From: Bacteroidaceae bacterium
GTDB lineage: Bacteria; Bacteroidota; Bacteroidia; Bacteroidales; Bacteroidaceae
Assembly: GCA_017442855.1 (NCBI GenBank)
Contig: JAFSPM010000005.1
Span: 1-40,533 of the forward strand
Reading direction: 5' to 3'
Length of the DNA stretch: 40,533 bases
The translations under genes were made by a program, and so were the position numbers. Positions within the stretch are counted from its first letter, which is position 1. Every line of letters starts with the position of its first letter. The notes under the pieces are model-generated. The model ran no database searches and was not told the origin of the DNA. It saw only the letters and a program-made list of their open reading frames with translations. Below are positions 6,195 to 34,660 of the stretch, in pieces.

Positions 6195-6200
6195 TGCACG

Positions 6201-7208
6201 ATGACAATAAAAAAGAGAAACTTTATAGTGTTATGCATTCAGGCAGCAGTGATGGTTATACTAATCATCCTGCCTGCATTGGGTACTTATTTCACGACCC
6301 ACAACCGTCAGGAGGCAATCATTGCCTTGCAAGAATCCTTGCCTTGGTTTCTGCCTATCATTTTGGTTTATCTGGTCAATTATTATTTGCTGGTACCCTA
6401 TTTATACCAACGCAACAAGTGGCTTTTCATTTTAGCCAATGCCCTATTAATGCTATTGATGAATCTGGGATGGTATGAGGATGATTTCTATAATGAGCCT
6501 TTCTATTCCGATTATTATATATTCATCATCTTGGATTTGTTAATGAACGCCCTTTCGGCAGCATGTGCCTTGGGTGTACGCCATATCCTACGACTGCATG
6601 AAGTAGAGATACAACTGGAAGAAATGAAGCATAAGAGCATGGAAGCCGAATTGGTATGGTTGAAAAACCAGCTCAACCCCCATTTCCTCTTCAATACGTT
6701 GAACAACATCTCGAGTCTGGTTTATATCGATGCCGACCAAGCACAGGACAGCATCACCAAGCTCAGCGACCTGCTTCGCTATGCACTGTATGAGTCGAGC
6801 AAAGCGGAGGTTTCGCTATTCGATGAGGTGGATTTTATGCAAAACTATATCAGCCTGATGAAGCTACGATGCAGTGACAAGGTAAAAGTGGAAACTCATT
6901 TCGACCTTTCACAACCTAGTGTGAAGATAGCCCCCATGCTTTTCATCTCTGTTTTAGAAAATGCCTTTAAACATGGGGTAAGCACACACCAGACTTCGTT
7001 CATCCATGCATCGCTATGCGTAAACGACGACAATATTGTCTTTACTTGTGACAACAGCAACTTCCCCAAGAAAGACAAGAACCTGTCAGGTGGTGTAGGC
7101 ATAGAAAATACCCAGCGTCGTTTGGAGTTGCTTTATCCGCAACGCAGTGAGTATGTGCATACTTTGCAGGATGACATTTATCATGTGGAAATCAAAATCA
7201 AACTCTAA
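6201..7208 (+). CDS. LytS-type membrane sensor histidine kinase
   Basis: 335 aa. Four hydrophobic segments (about residues 8-30, 47-70, 73-92 and 106-127) form a bare membrane module with no recognisable extracytoplasmic sensor domain. A short coiled linker leads to the His_kinase domain: Q-L-N-P-H-F-L-F-N-T-L-N carries the phospho-accepting His161, L-E-N-A-F-K-H-G (about 252-259) is the N box, and G-G-V-G-I-E-N-T-Q-R-R-L is the G box. The start is ATG 6201 rather than TTG 6192, because that TTG is inside a -7 box. The regulator begins 9 nt after the stop, so the two are a cognate pair. The membrane segments may sense the envelope state or the preceding barrel protein. Confidence 0.92.
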   Translation: MTIKKRNFIVLCIQAAVMVILIILPALGTYFTTHNRQEAIIALQESLPWFLPIILVYLVNYYLLVPYLYQRNKWLFILANALLMLLMNLGWYEDDFYNEPFYSDYYIFIILDLLMNALSAACALGVRHILRLHEVEIQLEEMKHKSMEAELVWLKNQLNPHFLFNTLNNISSLVYIDADQAQDSITKLSDLLRYALYESSKAEVSLFDEVDFMQNYISLMKLRCSDKVKVETHFDLSQPSVKIAPMLFISVLENAFKHGVSTHQTSFIHASLCVNDDNIVFTCDNSNFPKKDKNLSGGVGIENTQRRLELLYPQRSEYVHTLQDDIYHVEIKIKL

Positions 7209-7999: not shown

Positions 8000-9268
8000 A
8001 TGGCACATTTCTGTTTCATGGCATTCGGTAGCAGGGGCGATATCCAACCTATGGTTGCTGTTGCCTCGCAATTAGTAAGATTGGGACATCAAGCAACACT
8101 CTGTACAGAAGGCCGTTTCAAGAAGATGACAGAAGATCAAGGCATTATCTTTCAAGAGACGGTTCTTGATCTAATGGAGCTGGCCGACTCCTCTGAAGGG
8201 AAACGCATTTTCCAGGCTCCCATGAAAAACATGTCGTTGGCACACAAAATATTGAAGGATTATATATTACCCCGATTCAGGGCTTCACTTACCCAATGCT
8301 ATGAAGCTGCTAAAAAAGCCGATATCATCATCTATCATCCCAAGGTGTTTGGAGCTGTAGATATGGCAGAACTGTTAGGCATCCCTTGTATAGTTATGCC
8401 TGCCGTACCCATCATCTACCCTGTTGAAGAGTTTCCCAATTTAGGATTAACTACCCTGTCATTGGGTAGCTGGCTAAACAGGCTTTCCTACAAAGTGAAT
8501 GACTGGGCAGAAGGTTCCTATATTAAAAAAGTGAATGATTTCCGCGAGAAAGACCTTCAGCTGCCTTTAAGAAAAGCGGGTATCTATGCCCGTTACAGGA
8601 AAGGGAAAGAAATACCTATACTCTATCCGTTTAGTAAGTTGCTGTTCCCTGAGGTGCAGAGTTGGAAGGGGCATGTTGAGCTTTCGGGATTCTGCTTTTT
8701 GGAACGAGATGTAAAGCTAAATAGCATCACAGAAGATTTTCTGCTACAGGGTGAGAAACCTGTGTTGGTGACTTTTGGAAGTGTGGAGATTCCTCAATTG
8801 CCCGAATTCTTTCAAAAACTATGTACGGCTTTGGAAAAGACAAATAACCGTGCTATCTGTATAGGTAACAGGGAACATTATTTAGGTGGAAACCAACTTT
8901 CTGAATTTGCGGAATCCAATGTACTCTTCCTGCAAGAGGCACCTTTCTTTGCTCTGTTTCCAAAAATGAAAGGAGTAATGTGTCATGGAGGCATCGGCAC
9001 CGGTTCTACAGCCTTGCAATGTGGTGTGCCTTTGATACCAATACCTATCTCTGCCGATCAACCTTTCTGGGCAAAACGATATGAACTGACTGGCTGCTCA
9101 ACAGCAGCCATTAACATCAAGCACTGCTCGGAAGCAGACTTTATCAAAGCCTGCAAGGAGTTGGAAAACCCTCAACTGCTCCAGAACGTAGAACGAATGG
9201 CTGCGCAACTTCAGCAAGAGAACGGAACACAGAATGCAGCTGAATATCTTATTTCCCTCGTGGGCTGA
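8000..9268 (+). CDS. UGT-like glycosyltransferase (GT1/MGT type)
   Basis: 422 aa from ATG 8000; a TTG at 7973 would add nine residues, but the family start (M-A-H-x-x-F-x-x-F-G-S-R-G-D-I-Q-P) fits the ATG. The N-terminal glycine-rich loop G-S-R-G-D and the C-terminal donor-site signature C-H-G-G-I-G-T (His329) with G-V-P-L-I-P-I-P-I-S-A-D-Q mark the GT-B fold of sterol/macrolide/flavonoid-type glycosyltransferases. Such enzymes transfer a sugar from a nucleotide donor to a small hydrophobic acceptor. No signal peptide. It follows the response regulator by about 40 nt and could modify a lipid or detoxify a small molecule. The last 20 nt overlap the converging CMD-cupin gene. Confidence 0.88.
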   Translation: MAHFCFMAFGSRGDIQPMVAVASQLVRLGHQATLCTEGRFKKMTEDQGIIFQETVLDLMELADSSEGKRIFQAPMKNMSLAHKILKDYILPRFRASLTQCYEAAKKADIIIYHPKVFGAVDMAELLGIPCIVMPAVPIIYPVEEFPNLGLTTLSLGSWLNRLSYKVNDWAEGSYIKKVNDFREKDLQLPLRKAGIYARYRKGKEIPILYPFSKLLFPEVQSWKGHVELSGFCFLERDVKLNSITEDFLLQGEKPVLVTFGSVEIPQLPEFFQKLCTALEKTNNRAICIGNREHYLGGNQLSEFAESNVLFLQEAPFFALFPKMKGVMCHGGIGTGSTALQCGVPLIPIPISADQPFWAKRYELTGCSTAAINIKHCSEADFIKACKELENPQLLQNVERMAAQLQQENGTQNAAEYLISLVG

Positions 9269-10307
9269 ACCCATCTTTATTATACTGCTCATCATCCACC
9301 GGCTCCAACCACTCGTTGCTCTCCTCGCCGCTTGTCTTGATGTGGGCTGTCAAATGTTGGAACCAACTGTCTTTCTGTGCTCCGTGCCAGTGCTTTACAC
9401 CCTCGGGAATATCGATAACCATGCCGGAAGTAAGGGCGATGGGGTCCTTGCCCCACTCTTGGTACCAGCCTTTGCCAGAAACACAAATCAAAACTTGGCG
9501 GACGCCACGATGCACATGCCAGTTGTTGCGGCAACCTGGCTCAAAAGTAACGTTCGACAAAGGAAGTGCCGTCTGTTCACCCTCAGCAAGGTTGGCCGGT
9601 TTGATACGGGCCAGGTAACTGTCATTGATGAAATACTGGGCATAATTGACGTTGGGATCTCCCTTGGGGAAACCGTTTCGCAGGGTGTATCCCTCATGAT
9701 TGAGCCATGCACAGAGTTCATCGACTTGCTCTTGGGTGTTGCCCATATTCACAGCACCAGCCTTGTGGGCAGCCAACTGCGGAGCCACACCGTCGAGTCC
9801 CATCAGTGCAGCAACAGTCACTATCTCACGGTCGGCACGAGAGAGTTGGTCACTGGCAAAGATGTCGCCGAAGAGATGAGCCCTAAGGTAATATTCATCC
9901 TGAGGACAGAAGTCAAAGTTGAACGGACGGCCTGAGAGCTGTGTCTGGTTCTTCAGTCCCAGTTCGTAAGCAGCTTTGGCATCGTCCCACTCAGCAGGGC
10001 GTGTCCAAGGCTTACCTTCCTGCCAATTCACCTGCTTGTTTTCCAACACTTTGCTTAATACTCCCAACGCATTCAGCGAGCGAGGGAATCCCGTGTAGGC
10101 ATAGAGCTGTGAGAACGCCTCCTTCAGTTCGTTGATGGTTACTCCATTGTCGAGCGCCATCTTTACAGCAGGCTCTAATCTTGTCAAATCACCCTGTGCC
10201 ATCAGGCAGGCACATGCCGCCAATCCCTTCTGACGCTCTGTCAGCGTCTGTGCATTTACTGTTGCCATAGTTAATATTACCAATATGAGTGCTACAATCC
10301 TTTTCAT
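9249..10307 (-). CDS. Exported carboxymuconolactone decarboxylase-cupin fusion
   Basis: 352 aa. Signal peptide (about 1-20, ending N-A-Q), then two CMD/AhpD-like helical repeats (about 22-100 and 155-210), and a cupin domain (about 225-345) with G-C-R-N-N-W-H-V-H, G-W-Y-Q-E-W-G-K and I-P-E-G-V-K-H-W-H-G. The histidines are placed to bind a metal. The fusion is known among Bacteroidota proteins annotated as CMD family with cupin; the reaction is not settled, and peroxide, quinone or lactone chemistry is plausible. ATG 10307 was chosen because it starts the signal peptide and lies 25 nt after a consensus -7 box. Its cupin half is paralogous to the protein at 18712-19191 and to the fragment at 2738-2956. 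Confidence 0.9.
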   Translation of the reverse strand: MKRIVALILVILTMATVNAQTLTERQKGLAACACLMAQGDLTRLEPAVKMALDNGVTINELKEAFSQLYAYTGFPRSLNALGVLSKVLENKQVNWQEGKPWTRPAEWDDAKAAYELGLKNQTQLSGRPFNFDFCPQDEYYLRAHLFGDIFASDQLSRADREIVTVAALMGLDGVAPQLAAHKAGAVNMGNTQEQVDELCAWLNHEGYTLRNGFPKGDPNVNYAQYFINDSYLARIKPANLAEGEQTALPLSNVTFEPGCRNNWHVHRGVRQVLICVSGKGWYQEWGKDPIALTSGMVIDIPEGVKHWHGAQKDSWFQHLTAHIKTSGEESNEWLEPVDDEQYNKDGFSPRGK

Positions 10308-26171: not shown

Positions 26172-26225
26172 AATTTTTGATGATGCATGGGCAAACGAAT
26201 AATAGCTTATACCCAAAAATAATGA

Positions 26226-26256
26226 TTGCACTCATCATAAAAAAAATGTAACTTTG
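26226..26256 (+). promoter_or_regulatory. Promoter of the di-iron/LuxR regulator gene
   Basis: TTG (26226-26228), 20 nt, TAACTTTG (26249-26256). A TTG that could pass as a start codon (26254) is part of the -7 box, so the ATG at 26278 is the start. Confidence 0.65.
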
Positions 26257-26277: not shown

Positions 26278-27231
26278 ATGAGAAGGATGAAACTATATGA
26301 GGCTGATGACAAGATGATTGACTTGATCAGCGATAACTACAGTATGTTGCAAGGGTTGAGCGCTTTTGGCATTCAGCTGGGGTTTGGTGACAAGACGGTA
26401 AACGTGGTTTGCCAAGAACAGGGAGTTGACTGCTACACCTTTCTTACAGTAGTGAACTTCCTAATCAATGGATATGCTCCCAAAGAAACGGATGACAAGA
26501 TTTCTGTTGATACTCTCCTCGCCTATCTGCGGGCCTCACATCGCTATTTCCTCGACTATCAGTTGCCTTCTATCCGCAAGAAACTGGAGGAGTCGCTGGT
26601 GCATGGCGACAATCTTGACACGTTAATCTTGCGGCTCTACGACGAATATGCCCACGATATCCGCCAGCACATGAAATATGAGGAGAAGACGCTCTTCCCT
26701 TATGTGGAGGCTTTGCTATCGGGTGAACAGAAGTCTAACTACAACGTGGACATTTTCTCCAAACATCATAGCGATACTACTGGCAAGTTTCAGGAATTGA
26801 AGAACATCATCATCAAATATTTGCCTAACGACGGACTGGTGAACAACCAACTGACGGCTACACTCTACGACATCTACAACAACGAAGAATGGTTGTTGAA
26901 CCACAGCAATGTGGAAGAGGTGTTGTTTGTTCCTGCCATTCGCTTGCTGGAACAGCGACTGAAAAACGAAGATGTGACGGTACGCATCTCGAATATGATC
27001 AATAATGTAGATGCTACGGAATCTATTTCCGACCGTGAGAAGGAAATCATCGTGTGCTTGGTGCAAGGGATGTCGAACAAAGAGATTGCCGACCAACTAT
27101 ATATATCGGTCAATACCGTCATCACCCACCGTCGCAACATCGTGCGCAAGCTGCAGATTCATTCACTGGCCGGCCTTACCATTTATGCTATTGTTAACAA
27201 ACTGGTTGAATTGAAAGACATAGAACGATAA
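26278..27231 (+). CDS. RIC/YtfE-like di-iron hemerythrin domain fused to LuxR-type HTH (putative iron/O2/NO-sensing regulator)
   Basis: 317 aa. Residues about 20-62 resemble the ScdA_N/DUF542 domain of RIC proteins (G-I-Q-L-G-F-G-D-K-T, then A/V-C-Q-E-Q-G-V-D), but the paired cysteines usual in the C-C-G-G motif are replaced. Residues 85-225 form a hemerythrin-like bundle. His88, His109, His131, Glu135, His163 or 164, His209 and Glu213 match the spacing of the seven iron ligands of E. coli YtfE (84, 105, 129, 133, 160, 204, 208). Residues 249-312 are a NarL/LuxR HTH (S-D-R-E-K-E-I-I, G-M-S-N-K-E-I-A-D-Q-L, T-V-I-T-H-R-R-N-I). The protein is therefore a one-component regulator with a di-iron sensor. 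Its likely targets are itself and the converging imelysin/di-haem operon; this is inferred. Confidence 0.9.
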   Translation: MRRMKLYEADDKMIDLISDNYSMLQGLSAFGIQLGFGDKTVNVVCQEQGVDCYTFLTVVNFLINGYAPKETDDKISVDTLLAYLRASHRYFLDYQLPSIRKKLEESLVHGDNLDTLILRLYDEYAHDIRQHMKYEEKTLFPYVEALLSGEQKSNYNVDIFSKHHSDTTGKFQELKNIIIKYLPNDGLVNNQLTATLYDIYNNEEWLLNHSNVEEVLFVPAIRLLEQRLKNEDVTVRISNMINNVDATESISDREKEIIVCLVQGMSNKEIADQLYISVNTVITHRRNIVRKLQIHSLAGLTIYAIVNKLVELKDIER

Positions 27232-27246
27232 ACTATGCTCCCTACA

Positions 27247-27297
27247 AAAGGTAATCCTTGTAAACCGATTCACATCGGAATACAAGGACCTTTCTTT
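27247..27297 (+). terminator. Long three-tier hairpin after the di-iron/LuxR gene
   Basis: Nested stems AAAGGT/ACCTTT (27247-27252 with 27288-27293), CCTTGTA/TACAAGG (27256-27262 with 27281-27287) and CCGAT/ATCGG (27265-27269 with 27274-27278) with a TCAC loop. It is followed by a U-rich but imperfect tail. It begins 16 nt after the stop and probably ends the transcript. The length is unusual for a simple terminator. Confidence 0.65.
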
Positions 27298-27430
27298 CAA
27301 AAAAGTGGTTACGTAATTATGACTAACTAATTCATTAAATCTGACAATGCAAAGTTACTGCCTTTAGTCCTCCCTTGCAATAACTAAAAGTAGGTATATT
27401 TATCACAACTTATTCATTATTCGTAGGTAA

Positions 27431-28552
27431 TCAATAAGATGAAAAGGCAGCATTGGTTTGGGCTTTTACCGCCATACACTCCATCTCTATCAACCAACCT
27501 GGACGACATACTGAGGCATAGACAAACACCTTAGGCTTATCTGGAAAGCGTTCGTCATACAGGGATTTCACTACAGCATAGTCGGCCATATCGCGCAGAT
27601 AGACTATCATCTGTCCTACCTCATTGAAGGTACAATCGGCCTCATTGAGCAAAGCTTCCACATTCTCCCACATATGATAAGTCTGCTTGCGAATGTCACG
27701 ATGATACATGATTTCACCTTTATTATTGATGCTGGCGGTACCAGAAATGAATACCTGTCGGCGATCGCCATAATCCACCATCGTGCCTCGCTCGAAGCTC
27801 ACCCCATATTCCGAAGTACGGTTCAGATGGGTGGGTGCATAGAGATGATGAACCTGAGCAGGTTGGAGTCCATTGACGGAATAGGCATCCATCTGCACAA
27901 ATGATGCAGGATTGGCCATTCTGCCACCAATGCCTGTAGAGGCAATGAAATGCGTCTTGTCAGTTAGACCTTGTGTAACGAACACATCGTTGCGTGCCTT
28001 AACCATGCCCGCATATTTATTGTCGATATCTTGTACGAAAAACCAGGTACGCAGGCAGTTATCTGACAAGGTGCAACCTTCTTGCATGAGACTCATCACA
28101 TAGTCGTTGAGCAACAGGCGCGTCTGGTATTCCGAGTTTGCCGCTTGGTTAGTGTTACTGCCTGTCCACAAATGACGATAGTCACCATGCTTTGCCTCAA
28201 ACAAGCCATCGGACAAAGCTTTCATCTGCACATCTCCTTGCAACAGATATGCCCAAAGTGCTATCTTTGTACCGTCTAATGGTGGTTGTTGTACTAAAGA
28301 GAGAGCGCAACTGGTACCCTCGGTGGTCATGGCCAACAGCAAATCAGCTTGATTGGCGGCATCGCTCAGGAAATAACGTTTGAACACCGCCTCTGCTCCT
28401 GGCAAACTGGCCAACGCCTCATCATAAGCAGTCAACAAGGTTTCCACCTGCTGGGTATAGGTAAGTGTAGGATCAGTGACATGCACCATGAGGTGATATT
28501 CGTTCACCTCTCCTGCTACGAACTTAAATAATTCAACTTTTGCTTTATTCAT
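27431..28552 (-). CDS. Rid-superfamily (YjgF-like) two-domain protein, chorismatase-like architecture
   Basis: 373 aa from ATG 28552, 2 nt after the cytochrome gene stop; an ATG at 28585 would overlap it. The C-terminal third (about 255-365) is a Rid domain: V-F-I-S-G-T-A-S-I-N-N-K-G-E-I, Q-T-Y-H-M-W-E-N-V-E-A-L-L and C-R-P-G-W-L-I-E-M-E-C. The middle part (about 185-240) looks like a second, diverged Rid domain, giving the layout seen in chorismatases of the FkbO/Hyg5 group and in related uncharacterised proteins. No signal peptide, so cytosolic. It is last in an otherwise envelope-located haem/iron operon. It may be an imine deaminase, a chorismate-cleaving enzyme, or neither. Confidence 0.78.
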   Translation of the reverse strand: MNKAKVELFKFVAGEVNEYHLMVHVTDPTLTYTQQVETLLTAYDEALASLPGAEAVFKRYFLSDAANQADLLLAMTTEGTSCALSLVQQPPLDGTKIALWAYLLQGDVQMKALSDGLFEAKHGDYRHLWTGSNTNQAANSEYQTRLLLNDYVMSLMQEGCTLSDNCLRTWFFVQDIDNKYAGMVKARNDVFVTQGLTDKTHFIASTGIGGRMANPASFVQMDAYSVNGLQPAQVHHLYAPTHLNRTSEYGVSFERGTMVDYGDRRQVFISGTASINNKGEIMYHRDIRKQTYHMWENVEALLNEADCTFNEVGQMIVYLRDMADYAVVKSLYDERFPDKPKVFVYASVCRPGWLIEMECMAVKAQTNAAFSSY

Positions 28553-28554
28553 TT

Positions 28555-29295
28555 CTAATCTTTTTTTGCCCCATGCGTTATCCACTGACGAATCAGTGCC
28601 AAAAGACCATCGTCCACCACCTCACCCGTATGGTTGTAATGCCACTCGTCGGTAATGGTCACATCAGTAGAAATAGCTTGATACAAAGCACTCTTGGCTG
28701 CATCACCAGGCTCTACAATATTCATATCTGGCAACTTCTTGGAAGGCACATTCACTATGGCAGCATGACTTTTCTCCGCCGTGAGGTAAAGACCAGCTGC
28801 TGCTGAGGTTGCTGCACCGTGACAGTTGGCACAAGTAGCATTGAATACACGCTCTTGGATGGTGTTATACATCCCGACATTCAGGCTACCTGCATCTACC
28901 TCAATCTCATTGGCGGAAGTCAGCTTATTCTCATCAATGGTATAGAACGACACGATGTGTTTCCTCAGACGGTTGATGACGCATAGCTCTACACGGGTAA
29001 CATTCTCCTTGATGCCTGAAAGGACCACCGACACCTCATCGCCTTCTGTCGTAGGAACAGGCACCGACTTATTGATGAGCGCATAGTCGCTATCGTCATT
29101 AAAACCTGCCAGCACAACATACATAGAGGGGTCAGGCCATGAACTGAGTCCTGTAAGTTTGGCCGTCAGTGTCACCACACGTCCTTCTGGTGAGATAGGC
29201 ACTTCATCTTCATAGAGTCTGCCTTCATCGCACGACTGCAAGCTTACGAGCAGCAAACAGCATGTTAACAAATAACTTACTATTTTTCTAAACAT
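28555..29295 (-). CDS. Cytochrome c-domain lipoprotein
   Basis: 246 aa. Signal sequence with lipobox L-Q-S-C (Cys22). An N-terminal beta-sandwich-like region (about 30-145) precedes a small cytochrome c domain with haem-binding C-A-N-C-H (155-159) and a likely distal Met in P-D-M-N-I-V-E-P. A D-D-G-L-L-A-L-I-R-Q-W-I helix near the end is typical of class I cytochromes. The ATG at 29295 (or 29301, two codons upstream) starts the lipoprotein signal; both lie directly after the porin stop. It should carry electrons at the outer face of a membrane, probably with the di-haem protein. Confidence 0.87.
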   Translation of the reverse strand: MFRKIVSYLLTCCLLLVSLQSCDEGRLYEDEVPISPEGRVVTLTAKLTGLSSWPDPSMYVVLAGFNDDSDYALINKSVPVPTTEGDEVSVVLSGIKENVTRVELCVINRLRKHIVSFYTIDENKLTSANEIEVDAGSLNVGMYNTIQERVFNATCANCHGAATSAAAGLYLTAEKSHAAIVNVPSKKLPDMNIVEPGDAAKSALYQAISTDVTITDEWHYNHTGEVVDDGLLALIRQWITHGAKKD

Positions 29296-29302
29296 AACCA
29301 TA

Positions 29303-30514
29303 TTAGAAAGAGTATTGTAGCATAACAGTAGCCGAATGGGTAGCCAATCCCAAGTCATCGATGTCACGATCCAACTGGGTAGCATGTCCTGTACGACCAA
29401 TAAACTGATACATGGCTTGCAGCTTCACGTTGCTGTTGGGGAAGAAATAGTTGATGCCCACAGCTGGCATATTCAGTAAACCTTTCGCATCGGTACCATT
29501 GCGGTCCATTAGGTCATAACGCAAAGCAGCCTGCACACGAGGCGCCACAAAATAGCCCGCTTGTACATAACCTCCCCAGTAGTTGAAACCATCGTCAATC
29601 TTCATGCGTTTGGTAAAGCCCACATGCATGTAGTAAGCCTCAGCAGCCAAATAAAGTCGGCCTTTCAGCATGGCGAACTCCAATCCGGCACGAAAGTCGT
29701 TGGTACTCTCACTCTCACTTTCCACATTCAGCGATGCCGATGCGCCAAAAAGTATCTTGTCCTCGTTCAAGCGTTTGGGATTGCCCTGTGTAGCTGGCAT
29801 CACACCCTTTGGCATATAGGTAAGGCGACCGGCATAGAGCATGGCAGGAATATGCCAATCGTCGCTAAAGGTTTTGCCAGCTGTATTGACAGCTGCTCCT
29901 GTACCGTTAAAAATGCCCACTTCATAGCCCACCTTATTCAACAATCCGTGTATCTCAATACCCAGGTCAAAACCCGTACCAAAATTAGGATTTACCGCAT
30001 TGAGGGCATGGGGTAAGATAACTGGTGCAGTGAGTGATGTGGGCAACACAGGCATCAGCGTTTCGCCCAAAGTAGTAAGATAGGCATGTGTGAAGGGCGT
30101 TTTGAACTTACCGGCTCGAATGGCGAACTTCTCACTGAAAGCATAGTCAAACCACACCTGTTGCAGTAAAGCGCCTCCACTGGCAGCAGCATTGATGCTC
30201 AGGTTAAACGACAACTTATTGAATGCCTTACCTGTAAAGCCCAGCACAGCGTATGGGATTGAGAAACCTGAATTGGCTACATTATCTTGATTATATGCCT
30301 TGTCCAATCCTTCATCATCGTAATAGTTAAACTTGCCAGCTGCCTGCATCAGCAGGTAGGGTTTGAACACAAAGTCGCCTTTCTTGGTGGCAATAGAGAA
30401 GCCTTCCCTACCCGCCAATGATACCACACCATTGTCAGTATCTTCTTCATATTGTGCCATAGCGGTAAGTGGCAACAATACTGTCAATATCATTAATATA
30501 ATCTGTTTTCTCAT
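29303..30514 (-). CDS. Phosphate-selective porin O/P-like outer-membrane protein
   Basis: 403 aa with a signal peptide (about 1-21). It is a 16-strand-type barrel with F-V-F-K-P-Y-L-L-M-Q-A near the start, G-K-F-K-T-P-F and Y-x-A-G-R-L-T-Y segments, and a C-terminal Phe after alternating strand residues (T-V-M-L-Q-Y-S-F). The pattern fits the porin O/P family; the true solute is uncertain. It begins 2 nt after the di-haem gene and ends next to the cytochrome gene, so it belongs to the iron/haem operon and may pass the substrate of those proteins. Confidence 0.88.
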   Translation of the reverse strand: MRKQIILMILTVLLPLTAMAQYEEDTDNGVVSLAGREGFSIATKKGDFVFKPYLLMQAAGKFNYYDDEGLDKAYNQDNVANSGFSIPYAVLGFTGKAFNKLSFNLSINAAASGGALLQQVWFDYAFSEKFAIRAGKFKTPFTHAYLTTLGETLMPVLPTSLTAPVILPHALNAVNPNFGTGFDLGIEIHGLLNKVGYEVGIFNGTGAAVNTAGKTFSDDWHIPAMLYAGRLTYMPKGVMPATQGNPKRLNEDKILFGASASLNVESESESTNDFRAGLEFAMLKGRLYLAAEAYYMHVGFTKRMKIDDGFNYWGGYVQAGYFVAPRVQAALRYDLMDRNGTDAKGLLNMPAVGINYFFPNSNVKLQAMYQFIGRTGHATQLDRDIDDLGLATHSATVMLQYSF

Positions 30515-30516
30515 AT

Positions 30517-31959
30517 TTATAGTGATTTTAAAAATTCCACCAAATCGTCTCGTTCTTCCTTCGTCATGTTCTTGAAGATATTCTTCGATGCCTCACCCTC
30601 GCCACCGTGCCACATAATGGCCTCAACAAAATTTCGGGCACGTCCATCGTGCAGAAAATAGGTATGTCCGTTCACCTTCTGTTGTAAACCGATGCCCCAC
30701 AAAGGTGTGGTACGCCACTCGTTGCCACGAGCCAATCCGCTGACATAGTTGTCGTTCAGACCTACACCCATGATTTCGGAACCCATATCGTGCAAGAGGA
30801 AGTCGGAATAAGGATGAATGACCTGACTACCCAGCCAAGGTAACTCGGTGCCATTGAGCAACGTGGAACCACGAGGTTGTGTGTGCAAGGTCGTGGTGTG
30901 GCATAACTGGCACGATGCCTTATAGAACATCTGTTCGCCATGAATCACACGAGGGTCATTCACATTACGTCGTGCAGGCACGCCCAAGCTCTGCATATAG
31001 AGGTCCACATCCTCCATATCTTCGGTAGAGACATCCAGTTGGTCGTAGAGCAAGCCTATCATACTTCCCTGGTTGATTTGCAGTTGTCCCTCGCTAATCT
31101 CCTCAGGATAACGACTATTGGTCATTCCCATATCACTGCTGAAGCCCAGTTCCACTGTCAGGTCAGCATGTTGTGCCTTGTTGCCCGACAAGCCCAACTG
31201 AAGCTTACCCCGTTCGTTGATATAGTTAGCCTTGCCACTGATGCCAAACTCGGGATAGTTGCTCTGGCGAGCCAGTGCCTCAATCTCATTGCGGTCAATG
31301 GCCATGATCTGTCCCATACCCACATGTCGCAAGGGGATGCGTACCGTACAGAACAAGTCTTCTGGAGCAATGCTGTCGGCATACCATTCATATATCTCAT
31401 AGTTAGGCTTCGCCAACTCGTACTTCTCACCATCAGGAAACTCAAACGTCTCGAAATCATAAGTTACCCTCAGTTTCCCTTCTGGCTGAACACCATAGAT
31501 GGCATTGTCGTGAATCACACGCCCATAGTCTTGAAAGAAAGCACCGTTCTTGCGGGTGACATAGATCAAGGCTGAGGTAAAGCCGTAAGTGCCCGAGCCA
31601 CCTTGCGTCCACAGGGTGGGTTCCGTGCGTCCTGCATTACGATGGCAACTGCCACACGAATAACCTGCATAGACAGGTCCTAAACCACCATTATGACCAT
31701 TGTTATTGGTGCTTTTCACATTGTCATACAGTCGGTCACCACGATTAAAGCGGGTATCATAAACCCCACTTACCCAGTTGGCTGGCTGATCATAGGCCAC
31801 GGCCGAGTTGAAGAACACTGTGGATGTGCCGGCCGACAGGGCATAACCTTCGATGACTTCTATGTCTTCAGCCGTGAAATGGTCTCCTGTCTCATCGCAG
31901 GAAACCATTATCAATGCGGCTATAACAACCAATAAACAACGAAAACAGTTATTCTTCAT
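30517..31959 (-). CDS. Di-haem oxidoreductase family (DHOR/DUF1111) lipoprotein
   Basis: 480 aa. The lipobox V-S-C (Cys21) makes it a lipoprotein. Two c-type haem motifs are visible: Cys102-G-S-Cys105-His106 and Cys350-Q-L-Cys353-His354. Flanking signatures are G-L-G-P-V-Y-A-G-Y-S-C, R-I-P-L-R-H-V-G-M-G and F-L-H-D-G-R-A-R-N-F-V-E-A-I-M-W-H-G-G-E. This is the family found next to imelysins, distantly related to di-haem peroxidases. It overlaps the imelysin stop by 4 nt (ATGA). A role in electron transfer during iron handling at the envelope is inferred from that pairing. Confidence 0.93.
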   Translation of the reverse strand: MKNNCFRCLLVVIAALIMVSCDETGDHFTAEDIEVIEGYALSAGTSTVFFNSAVAYDQPANWVSGVYDTRFNRGDRLYDNVKSTNNNGHNGGLGPVYAGYSCGSCHRNAGRTEPTLWTQGGSGTYGFTSALIYVTRKNGAFFQDYGRVIHDNAIYGVQPEGKLRVTYDFETFEFPDGEKYELAKPNYEIYEWYADSIAPEDLFCTVRIPLRHVGMGQIMAIDRNEIEALARQSNYPEFGISGKANYINERGKLQLGLSGNKAQHADLTVELGFSSDMGMTNSRYPEEISEGQLQINQGSMIGLLYDQLDVSTEDMEDVDLYMQSLGVPARRNVNDPRVIHGEQMFYKASCQLCHTTTLHTQPRGSTLLNGTELPWLGSQVIHPYSDFLLHDMGSEIMGVGLNDNYVSGLARGNEWRTTPLWGIGLQQKVNGHTYFLHDGRARNFVEAIMWHGGEGEASKNIFKNMTKEERDDLVEFLKSL

Positions 31960-33182
31960 TTATTCAATATCTTTTGCATGAAAGGCTTCAACTCTCCTGT
32001 CAGCACAGTCTCAAGATCACCACAAGCATCCATAGCTTTCTTGGCTTCAGCACTGTTGATGTTGTTTCTGAAAGGCTGTGGGATAGCCTGAATGGCATCG
32101 GCAGCTGCCTGGATAGCATTCTTCACCTTGGTATCGAATGCTTCATCTACCTTCTTGACCAAAGCCGACAACGACTTTTCGTTGACGCTACCATCCAATG
32201 AACCAAAATATGCATTGCGGATGGAATAGATATTATTGGTATAGTCGTCGCGTGAGTGCCAACTGTACCAAGATTCAACCGCATAGAGGGCCTCTTGTGT
32301 CTTGCCATCTTCATACAAGCTCACAGGATCACCAATCTTGGAGGCACCCACCTCACTGGCAATGTCGGCACAGCCATCGATGATCTGCTCAATGCAATTG
32401 ATGGCACTGTTAAAGCCCTCGGTACCATCGTGTGCCTTGAATATCTCAGCATAACTTTTGCCTCCGTTATAACTATCGTTCCAGTCGGCATACAACGTAT
32501 TGGCATCGGCGCGCAACAAAGCTGCTACAGCTTGCATATAGTTGGCCCATGCATCTTTGTTAGCATCGGCATACTCCATCGTATTTGGGTCAGCAGAGCC
32601 TGTTGTAGCAGAAACGGTACGGGGCTCACCATCCTTGAAGGTCAGGTATTCCAATGTATGGAAACCACGAACACTTTGCACTGCCTCAATGTCTTCGTCA
32701 TCCTCGTCATAGTCACCACTCCACTCCAAAGCTGCCCAGTCGGCTGAATTCAGGATAGCAGCAATGGATACTTGATCAAGTGGCCAACTGTCCATGTTTG
32801 GATCAAGACCTTTATCTGCCACAGGGCCAAATAGGAATGCTTCGCTCGACTCCCAAGGCTCGCGTGCATCCAGCCAAGCATTGGCCACTTCCTCGAAATT
32901 GGCATCAGATGGTGATTGACGGAACTTTTCAACGGCTTTGTTCAGTGCTTCGTTTTTCTCTGCCAAAGCCTTGTAGGTAGGTAATACTACACCATCTACA
33001 TACTGTGCTACAGCAGCGCTCAAGTCGGCCTCAGTGACACTAACTGTAGGTGATGGTGTAGGTGTTGGAGAGGGACTTGGTGTAGGTGAAGGAGTTGGTT
33101 CGTTTTTATCACTGCCACAAGCCATGAAGGCAAACGCCATCGCAAATGCCATCAATCCATTAAAAAAGTCTTTTCTTTTCAT
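31956..33182 (-). CDS. Imelysin-family lipoprotein (peptidase M75-like)
   Basis: 408 aa. Lipobox M-A-C (Cys22), then a Pro/Ser/Thr linker (about 28-48) that holds the domain off the membrane. The helical imelysin domain (about 50-405) has the diagnostic G-x-H-x-x-E motif at 173-178 (G-F-H-T-L-E) and a W-L-D-A-R-E-P-W-E-S-S-E-A-F-L-F-G-P block. Imelysins are linked to iron uptake and are not proven peptidases. It follows the first porin by 26 nt and overlaps the di-haem gene, as in other imelysin loci. Confidence 0.95.
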   Translation of the reverse strand: MKRKDFFNGLMAFAMAFAFMACGSDKNEPTPSPTPSPSPTPTPSPTVSVTEADLSAAVAQYVDGVVLPTYKALAEKNEALNKAVEKFRQSPSDANFEEVANAWLDAREPWESSEAFLFGPVADKGLDPNMDSWPLDQVSIAAILNSADWAALEWSGDYDEDDEDIEAVQSVRGFHTLEYLTFKDGEPRTVSATTGSADPNTMEYADANKDAWANYMQAVAALLRADANTLYADWNDSYNGGKSYAEIFKAHDGTEGFNSAINCIEQIIDGCADIASEVGASKIGDPVSLYEDGKTQEALYAVESWYSWHSRDDYTNNIYSIRNAYFGSLDGSVNEKSLSALVKKVDEAFDTKVKNAIQAAADAIQAIPQPFRNNINSAEAKKAMDACGDLETVLTGELKPFMQKILNK

Positions 33183-33208: not shown

Positions 33209-34552
33209 TCATTTTTTAAAGAACCAGCCAGCATACGCAATGCCGATATTAAACTCATTCTCACTATTAAAGCCCGTAGTGCCAAACACTTTCTGGGTAC
33301 CAATCTGGCGAGTGGTAAAATCTGCCTTTACCACCAAGTTGGGAAGTGGTTTCCAGTTCAGACCCATGCGCCACATGCTAACTTGACATCGGGCATCGGC
33401 CGTCTGGCCTTCATCCATCACCTGCTGAGGATTGTAATACTCATAATGGGCAAAAGGTATCACATCGGGGAATTTCTCGCTTTTAACAAGCGACTTGACC
33501 CTCACACCGAGGTCAACACTATAGGTTAGGGCCCCTGATGCAAAGGGTGCCTTACGACCATAGGGGGATAGTTTGGAATAGCTGTTGTTGATACGGGTGA
33601 TTCCTGCGGCTTTTCCCACATGGCCACTGATAATGTTACCCCTCATAATGAAATACTTATTGATATATTCACCATCAATATTCCAGATGGTAACAGGTAT
33701 CTTGCCTAATGAAGTATAGGTATTCAGTTTGTCGGCATTACCACCAGCATCGTTGATGTAATAGAACGAGCCTCCGATTCTTAGACCAGGCACACCTACA
33801 TAGTCAAGACGTGCTACCCATGCTGGCGAGGTGAAGTTATCAAGTTCAAAGAGGTTCTGGCGGCCACCTTTCACCCAATCGTACTTGCTGAAACCATTGG
33901 GATTCAAGCCTGCCACCACCATCGCCTGATAATTAAATGTAGAATACCTTTTACCAAACGTTCCAAAGAAGGAGATACCTGTCTCGTGCCAAGTGGAAGG
34001 AAATATGGTAGTTTCTCCTTCTGGGCGTGTTGTTCCGAAGAAATTTGTTGGCTCATGATGAGCATTGGTTAATCCAACAGGAAGCACTAAATGTCCAACA
34101 CGGACATTAAATTCTCGCGTAATCAATCGGGTGATATGAAATTGCTCCAACGCCACCTCACCACCTTTTTCAAATTCCTGCTCGTATTCACCATTCTCAC
34201 TGCCTGTACCCGTTTCCAGTTCGTAGGCCGTACCTACTCCACCCGATTCAAACTCTATCTCAGCACCCAGTATCCACTTGGAAGAGAATTTGTAGTCGAG
34301 CGCCAATACAAAACGAGGTATGGCAATCTGTGCATGGTTTTTCTTGCTATTGCCGACGGTAGAGCCATTCCAACGATTCAAACCATAGTCTTTCCAACTG
34401 GCATACATCTCGCCATAACCTCCGAAACGAAAGCGCCAATTACCACTGTACTCAGAAGTAACCGACTGATATTCATCACTCTTTTTATTCTGAGCAAAGA
34501 CTGTTGTCAACGGCAAAAGAGCCAATATGCAAAGGGTAATAATTCTATACAT
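33209..34552 (-). CDS. Outer-membrane porin-like barrel protein, first gene of the imelysin operon
   Basis: 447 aa with a signal peptide (about 1-20). The start F-R-F-G-G-Y-G-E-M-Y-A, the repeated amphipathic strands, R-V-G-H-L-V-L-P-V-G-L-T-N-A-H-H-E-P, and the C-terminal aromatic strand fit an outer-membrane barrel of porin type. I cannot name the solute. It is the first gene of a six-gene minus-strand operon and has a -7 box and a large inverted repeat upstream. A role in letting an iron source into the periplasm for the imelysin and di-haem proteins is inferred. Confidence 0.85.
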   Translation of the reverse strand: MYRIITLCILALLPLTTVFAQNKKSDEYQSVTSEYSGNWRFRFGGYGEMYASWKDYGLNRWNGSTVGNSKKNHAQIAIPRFVLALDYKFSSKWILGAEIEFESGGVGTAYELETGTGSENGEYEQEFEKGGEVALEQFHITRLITREFNVRVGHLVLPVGLTNAHHEPTNFFGTTRPEGETTIFPSTWHETGISFFGTFGKRYSTFNYQAMVVAGLNPNGFSKYDWVKGGRQNLFELDNFTSPAWVARLDYVGVPGLRIGGSFYYINDAGGNADKLNTYTSLGKIPVTIWNIDGEYINKYFIMRGNIISGHVGKAAGITRINNSYSKLSPYGRKAPFASGALTYSVDLGVRVKSLVKSEKFPDVIPFAHYEYYNPQQVMDEGQTADARCQVSMWRMGLNWKPLPNLVVKADFTTRQIGTQKVFGTTGFNSENEFNIGIAYAGWFFKK

Positions 34553-34575: not shown

Positions 34576-34583
34576 CAAAATTA
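34576..34583 (-). promoter_or_regulatory. -7 box of the porin-imelysin operon
   Basis: TAATTTTG on the minus strand, 23 nt before the porin start. No TTG at the right distance upstream; the inverted repeat at 34607-34657 begins there instead. Confidence 0.45.
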
Positions 34584-34606
34584 GACAGAACCCAGATAGG
34601 AAGAAA

Positions 34607-34657
34607 TACCTAAAAATATGTAAAATACATTGACAACGTATTCATCATTTTTAGGTA
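34607..34657. promoter_or_regulatory. 11-bp perfect inverted repeat upstream of the imelysin operon
   Basis: TACCTAAAAAT (34607-34617) and ATTTTTAGGTA (34647-34657), centres 40 bp apart (about four helical turns). The half-site start TACCTA resembles NarL-type heptamers (TACYYMT), and the local candidate regulator has a NarL/LuxR HTH. A partial half-site TAGGTATAT also occurs near 27392. Operator function is inferred. Confidence 0.5.
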
Positions 34658-34660
34658 TAT

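Follow-up and report, generated by a model that had tools for sequence, protein, structure and literature searches.

The locus and its fused regulator

The window (the whole 40,533-nucleotide stretch of Bacteroidaceae DNA analysed here) carries a gene for a one-piece hemerythrin–LuxR protein, an operon on the opposite strand, a candidate small RNA and several operator-like sites:

26207..26228 (+): operator-like palindrome at the regulator's own promoter, with the -7 box TAACTTTG at 26249-26256 (motif)
26278..27231 (+): fused hemerythrin–LuxR regulator, 317 aa (open frame, Pfam, relatives, conservation)
26515..26937 (+): hemerythrin-like domain, residues 80–220 (Pfam; H88 and five YtfE-aligned ligand candidates lie inside)
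27022..27189 (+): LuxR/GerE helix-turn-helix, residues 249–304 (Pfam)
27251..27341 (-): small RNA convergent with the regulator gene, a candidate for iron sparing (operator, conservation, covariation, folding)
27378..27399 (-): operator-like palindrome of the small RNA, 22.9 bits, the top score in the window, with a -7 box at 27350-27357 (motif)
27431..28585 (-): RidA-like protein at the end of the operon, Endoribonuclease L-PSP PF01042 (Pfam)
28555..29400 (-): CxxCH protein, c-type cytochrome-like (by eye; no Pfam match)
29303..30514 (-): Porin O/P, PF07396 (Pfam)
30517..31959 (-): di-haem oxidoreductase DHOR, PF06537 (Pfam)
31956..33182 (-): imelysin, Peptidase_M75 PF09375 (Pfam)
33209..34552 (-): porin-like outer-membrane protein at the head of the operon (without a Pfam match; named by eye and from relatives)
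34604..34625 (-): operator-like palindrome at the porin/imelysin operon promoter, with a -7 box at 34576-34583 (motif)
34647..34658 (-): second operator core, with the sequence ATACCTAAAAAT, on the upstream side of the preceding palindrome (motif)

The regulator frame runs from the ATG at 26278 to the stop at 27231 and codes for 317 aa; the TTG at 26254 is a further open start for it. As the original prediction had it, a hemerythrin-like bundle and a NarL/LuxR helix-turn-helix share this one frame: PF01814 (Hemerythrin) matches residues 80–220 (E 1.8e-9), and PF00196 (GerE/LuxR) residues 249–304 (E 1.6e-18). Pfam found no receiver domain in the protein. The DUF542-like N-terminus that had also been proposed stands in part: no Pfam family, DUF542 included, matches there at E <= 1; ScdA, however, can be matched to residues 8–220 with a profile built from the N-terminal part (E 3e-5).

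The fusion is real, with hundreds of relatives in Bacteroidota. At least 529 relatives are encoded among the 595 matched contig stretches listed, and the loci of the best 80 of these carry full-length versions, so that the fusion is no accident of assembly. Some match, those to the helix-turn-helix alone being counted, occurs in 190 of 201 sampled family genomes. The window's own assembly, 80% complete and in 49 contigs, holds a second fused paralogue (L002, G000:C30:7314-8270) that is 47% identical to the window protein and has a palindrome ~88 nt before its start. Several Prevotella-type loci have a second LuxR-type regulator, of ~205 aa, directly adjoining the fused gene (L048, at 8963-9583, and L052, L061, L068, L082, L089, L090, L094, L096 and L097).

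Seven YtfE di-iron ligands had been proposed for the protein, and six of the residues named hold up. H88, H131, E135, H164, H209 and E213 are invariant in all 116 aligned sequences, comprising the window protein, 105 other fused proteins and 10 split ones. The last five align with H129, E133, H160, H204 and E208 of YtfE in a profile alignment; H88 corresponds to YtfE H84 by order and spacing only, since the YtfE alignment stops short of it, and in the ScdA alignment a His of ScdA lies one residue off. The seventh, His109, we reject: the position varies, Glu being commonest among close relatives (45 of 96) and Cys occurring in 7 of 9 distant fused relatives. The passage of a review that deals with the YtfE crystal structure gives six protein ligands, H84, H204, H129, H160, E133 and E208, with H105 not among them, and an earlier section counts H105 among the conserved residues (PMC9268430). 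In the His163/His164 pair the ligand candidate is H164; H163 is variable, and occupies the position of E159, which RIC proteins keep. We regard the six residues as candidate YtfE-type di-iron ligands, whose convergence in space is predicted from the ScdA/YtfE alignment.

The paired cysteines of RIC proteins are indeed replaced, as had been noticed: the ScdA pair falls on the Gly–Phe of a conserved LGFGDKT in the regulator. A cysteine at a different place, C45, is present in 115 of the 116 sequences. Against the RIC equivalog model TIGR03652 (NCBIfam) the protein scores 54.3 bits, where the cut-off is 204.7; judged by score, the fused protein is not a RIC.

Split relatives and the iron context

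In related genomes the two parts are encoded separately, by a hemerythrin gene of ~234 aa and, directly behind it, a LuxR regulator gene of ~200 aa, an order found in all 10 family split loci read. Identity between the window protein and the split forms is 47–52% in the hemerythrin part and 58–71% in the helix-turn-helix, L120 standing at 44%. By its domain content—hemerythrin plus LuxR helix-turn-helix, in one gene or in two adjacent ones—the window protein is a Bacteroidota hemerythrin–CdhR regulator. Pfam found GerE, and no receiver domain, in the seven split-pair regulators scanned (five from the family, two remote), and at what we take to be the position of the phospho-Asp these have, by eye, an Asn. 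That a di-iron-type domain is joined directly to a DNA-binding domain, with no kinase between, gains support from these seven partners as a probable arrangement.

Other families of the phylum have the split pair at six loci (L128–L130, L132–L134), and the fusion at L131, where 1504-2583 encodes a 359-aa hemerythrin–LuxR protein beside feoB; its relative L130 is split. The L131 fusion is apparently independent. A tree of 49 hemerythrin domains needs five changes between fused and split, at least three of them forced by well supported branches, and hence either at least two separate fusions took place, or fusion and separation alternated. The fused forms lack the N-terminal half of the partner regulator, and since L131 is far from the window's lineage, replacement of this half by hemerythrin apparently took place more than once, a pattern that points to the hemerythrin as the probable input. 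The same replacement tells against the idea that the hemerythrin part stores or donates iron, the signal coming from elsewhere, for example from a kinase that acts on the regulator. RIC relatives do donate iron, according to the parts of the review that treat them (PMC9268430), and the titles of papers link P. gingivalis tyrosine kinases with CdhR; we nevertheless consider this decidedly unlikely, and take the hemerythrin domain as the probable sensor.

The domain pair is not novel. A 2023 paper, in the sections drawn on here, notes the same fusion in Prevotella intermedia, where the operon is joined into one protein, PIN17_RS10465, and describes the split hemerythrin–CdhR operon of Porphyromonas and Bacteroides as induced by iron starvation (PMC10434189). 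A literature search that combined hemerythrin, LuxR and Bacteroides found no paper; since the fusion is published, the difference is one of wording, not of kind.

Genome G149, placed in the window's genus, has in order hemerythrin, regulator, a small RNA on the opposite strand, cytochrome c biogenesis, DHOR, imelysin and porin. This is the window's plan, with the fused gene replacing two genes. The sampled genus-mates of the window carry split forms, and for that reason we considered an acquired fused gene that replaced a split pair. We do not claim it, because G149 shares with the window the order of regulator, small RNA and convergent imelysin operon, whereas in sequence the genes of the window's operon are like those of the fused clade.

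The search for the domain pair across Bacteroidota that the original prediction called for gave many relatives, with an imelysin operon, feoAB, flavodoxin and TonB genes as tabulated neighbours. In the flanks of 81 fused loci, where counts are limited by contig ends, a porin occurs at 37 and imelysin and DHOR at 35, most often directly upstream of the fused gene and divergent from it. A TonB receptor adjoins some fused genes where the imelysin operon is absent (L021, L032). FeoB or feoAB adjoins five of the seven remote relatives (L129, L130, L131, L133, L134) and L115 as well, and flavodoxin adjoins L113 and L114. In the expression results of the 2023 paper that we draw on, iron depletion raises PG1236-37 7-fold and BT0519-20 16–20-fold, and a B. 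thetaiotaomicron locus with the same content as the window operon 63–324-fold; CdhR is there said to regulate hmuYR, with iron binding by CdhR yet to be demonstrated (PMC10434189). Activation of the hmu genes by CdhR is stated in excerpts of a further paper (PMC10101095).

O2, NO, peroxide and iron had all been named as possible signals. Genomic context and published expression favour iron, with oxygen as the main rival. Hemerythrin domains are known as O2 or redox sensors. In P. gingivalis cdhR and hmu fall under microaerophilic conditions, as passages of two papers report (PMC10101095, PMC9388753); the fall of cdhR (PMC10101095) counts against our best reading, and fits an oxygen signal too. 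But the ligand set is of the RIC type rather than that of the canonical sensors, and gene neighbours and published induction point to iron. We therefore think oxygen or redox sensing unlikely as the function of the domain, although iron and oxygen signals may coincide, and take iron as the favoured signal.

An operator-like palindrome and its promoters

De novo motif discovery first brought up the -7 promoter box rather than an operator. Common to 30 divergent intergenic regions is ATACCYAWAAAT, present with one mismatch or none in 24 of the 30, against a mean of 0.66 and a maximum of 3 in shuffled controls. Exact ATACCYAWAAAT cores lie at 34606-34617, 34647-34658 and 26209-26220, and the core at 34647-34658 forms an inverted pair with the first. 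Binding had been predicted at 34607-34657 and at the regulator's own promoter; with exact cores at both places, the motif supports these positions as candidate sites.

The palindrome to which this core belongs fits the 7-2-7 form of NarL sites. When 50 promoters are aligned on TAnnTTTG, the -7 box follows its centre at a distance of 31 or 32 nt in 45 of them; in the other five the palindrome scores below 5 bits. Used as a matrix, it passes 12 bits upstream of 61 of the 75 held-out fused genes (shuffled mean 0.35) and of 10 of 10 held-out split genes (shuffled mean 0.2), one of 116 upstream regions being too short for the scan. The other 14 of the 75 are without an operator in the 200 nt upstream. 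In 1.49 Mb of loci, 148 sites have a box at the right distance, a count in which training and overlapping loci are included; a single base-shuffled copy gave 0. At the remote relatives L129, L130, L131 and L134, feoB or feoAB is preceded by a related palindrome that lacks the TAnnTTTG box, and no palindrome site was found at the remote split loci L132 and L133; these two, with the 14 fused genes, count against our best reading. A literature search for a CdhR binding site found none. What is new here is a conserved palindrome that sits ~31 nt ahead of the -7 box, in front of both the regulator and the imelysin/di-haem operon, and that is also met before feoAB, flavodoxin and TonB genes.

The window's assembly holds seven sites at three mismatches or fewer (controls, 0), four of them inside the window, and five other genomes hold 37 at two mismatches or fewer, with one control match in each of two genomes. 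We surveyed the genes behind 23 of these 44 sites. They are TonB receptors, a PepSY protein, enolase, pyruvate formate-lyase, a TetR regulator, a porin and a methyltransferase, named by eye and, for pyruvate formate-lyase, by Pfam too; about five of the 23 have no convincing gene behind them. Several of these classes belong to the iron stimulon as given in the relevant sections of the 2023 paper (PMC10434189). The palindrome precedes pyruvate formate-lyase and enolase genes at L116 (9748-9769), L209, L213 and L220, a placement that suggests a shift of fermentation at low iron.

This survey bears on whether the regulator senses NO or nitrite, given that RIC relatives react with NO. Its ligands are of the RIC type, an Hcp-like gene, recognised by eye, lies near the split pair in L114, and YtfE is described in one account as a nitrite reductase. 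The genes behind the palindrome, however, are those of iron uptake and iron replacement; NO-defence genes stand behind none of the 23 sites (of 44) examined, and no second link with Hcp was found. We hold an NO or nitrite sensor to be highly improbable.

A candidate small RNA, its predicted targets and the overall reading

The window's best site, 27378-27399 (-), faces no gene, and the stretch behind it recurs beside the regulators of other genomes. What this site would drive, and what seems to be new, is a candidate small RNA absent from Rfam: Rfam 15 gave no match at gathering in 68,431 bases, and none at E <= 5 in 27200-27450. The RNA is ~95 nt long, with a conserved UUAGUCAUAA and UUACGUARCCAC followed by a hairpin with a GNRA loop, and it folds better than 200 of 200 shuffles (z -3.64), a strength to be expected of a terminator hairpin. 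Covariance models place it in 43 (R1) or 47 (R2) of 201 family genomes, among them all 13 sampled genomes of the window's genus; they did not find it in 154 of the 201, nor in any of 83 loci around close fused relatives. In an alignment of 30 sequences fitted to the model, pairing holds for 96.4% of hairpin cells, both sides vary in 11 of the 13 pairs, and 0 of 500 shuffles reach as high a covariation. Of 31 small RNA loci, one a weak match, 28 could be parsed for the operator, which exceeds 13 bits in 24 and 10 bits in 26, with a spacing of 31. The RNA lies 3.5 kb or less downstream of the hemerythrin gene in 21 of the 32 genomes compared (from the 43 that have it). Short frames in the candidates do not recur, and a coding RNA seems improbable.

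Genome G149 has two copies of the RNA 7 kb apart (G149:C1:1627689-1627784 and 1634679-1634774). Behind a Prevotella-type fused gene, L123 has two back-to-back operator-promoters without an open frame (6198-6266); one transcript would end in a hairpin with a GUGA loop, and has no match to the small RNA model. The listings and main text of the literature on Bacteroides iron small RNAs contain none near this operon; possibly the RNA is an unnamed entry in small-RNA catalogues, the supplements being outside the search. Antisense or hemin-linked small RNAs of P. gingivalis are mentioned in the sections of the 2023 paper used here (PMC10434189).

We picked sdhC, rbr and pfor as targets because they fall in iron depletion, according to those same sections (PMC10434189), and then examined the duplexes. 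Scores based on energy only were mixed: z was -6.0 for pfor of G149 and -0.1 for pfor of G072, -0.4 for sdhC of both G149 and G000, and +0.9 for rbr of G126. The idea of a seed arose from this output, and its tests came later. At many pfor and rbr genes the start codon lies within UUAUGACUAA, to which UUAGUCAUAA is exactly complementary. With G-U allowed, nine or more contiguous pairs form at 23 of 25 target starts (sdhC 5/5, sdhA 4/5, rbr 4/5, pfor 10/10) against 1 of 254 other starts, in a test that covered part of the loci from genomes with the RNA and omitted G072, where the seed differs. The one exception among the 254 is an apparent ATG inside a feoB gene. Of 1206 starts, from genomes with or without the RNA, 34 reach nine pairs, and ~20 of these belong to sdhC, sdhA, rbr and pfor.

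Among genomes that have the RNA, the pfor start has nine or more pairs in 19 of 20 (16 of 20 if G-U is disallowed), and among those without it in 0 of 13; two loci without the RNA had no start, and G162 had no full gene. Fourteen of the 20 were unseen when the seed idea arose, and 13 of these fit, the exception, G044, having only a weak RNA match. In G072 the seed differs, UUAACCAUAA, and the pfor start differs too, UAUGGUUAA; a common seed was assumed for the other genomes. For the window's genome itself, a G-U pair is needed in both the pfor and the rbr match. Target rows share ancestry and the presence of the RNA follows clades, so that these counts are not independent and the p-values of the target tests are not evolutionary probabilities. 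The predicted complementarity of the seed to the start codons of pfor, rbr, sdhC and sdhA is, we believe, also new.

Put together, these observations suggest the following course of events. The hemerythrin domain would carry a di-iron centre that, when iron is scarce, would be lost or changed in state. In the resulting apo-type state the helix-turn-helix would bind the palindrome as a dimer, next to the -33 region, where it would recruit RNA polymerase; activation rather than repression is indicated by the position of the site and by the published induction. The regulator would thus activate its own gene, genes of iron uptake and iron replacement, and the small RNA, which in turn would pair with the pfor, rubrerythrin and succinate dehydrogenase/fumarate reductase messages across their start codons, and so lower the translation of these iron-rich enzymes. 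Metal sensing, DNA binding, expression of the RNA and repression by it are all steps that we infer. Besides the operator gaps and the fall of cdhR, what tells against this course is the low RIC score, the lack of the RNA in most family genomes and around the close fused relatives, the mixed energy scores, and the G-U pair needed in the window's genome. Unless we are mistaken, and we think the odds reasonably in favour, the window encodes a one-piece Bacteroidota hemerythrin–CdhR activator of the iron-starvation response, with an iron-sparing small RNA that acts over the starts of iron-rich enzymes. Operator, promoter rule and small RNA with its predicted targets are testable in B. thetaiotaomicron by ordinary genetics.

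The nearest known systems are PG1236-37, BT0519-20 and PIN17_RS10465, which have the same two domains, in split and fused forms, and the same link with iron starvation, their orthology with the window protein being a matter of description only; the operator, regulon and small RNA reported here do not figure in that paper's text as drawn on (PMC10434189). The hemerythrin–diguanylate cyclase sensors, as presented in excerpts of another paper, likewise have a hemerythrin input domain, but their output is enzymatic, whereas that of the window protein would be DNA binding (PMC10101095). With the RIC proteins YtfE and ScdA the regulator shares the ligand pattern, and ScdA can be aligned over residues 8–220; unlike them, it is without the N-terminal DfCCgG cysteine pair, has a residue other than Glu at the E159 position, scores far under the RIC cut-off and has an added helix-turn-helix domain. 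NarL/LuxR response regulators have the same GerE helix-turn-helix and a form of palindrome that the one here fits, but the fused form is without a receiver and none is recognised in the split partner.

In E. coli, Fur and RyhB answer low iron with a small RNA that represses iron-rich enzymes. Here, too, low iron would lead to a small RNA repressing such enzymes, with the differences that an activator would be at work rather than a repressor that is lost, and that the small RNA has no match in Rfam. We lean, if only by a little, toward the view that Bacteroidota possess an activator counterpart of Fur–RyhB: a sensor of di-iron occupancy, linked directly to DNA binding, would turn on iron uptake together with an unlisted small RNA which, by pairing at start codons, would silence pfor, rubrerythrin and succinate dehydrogenase/fumarate reductase.
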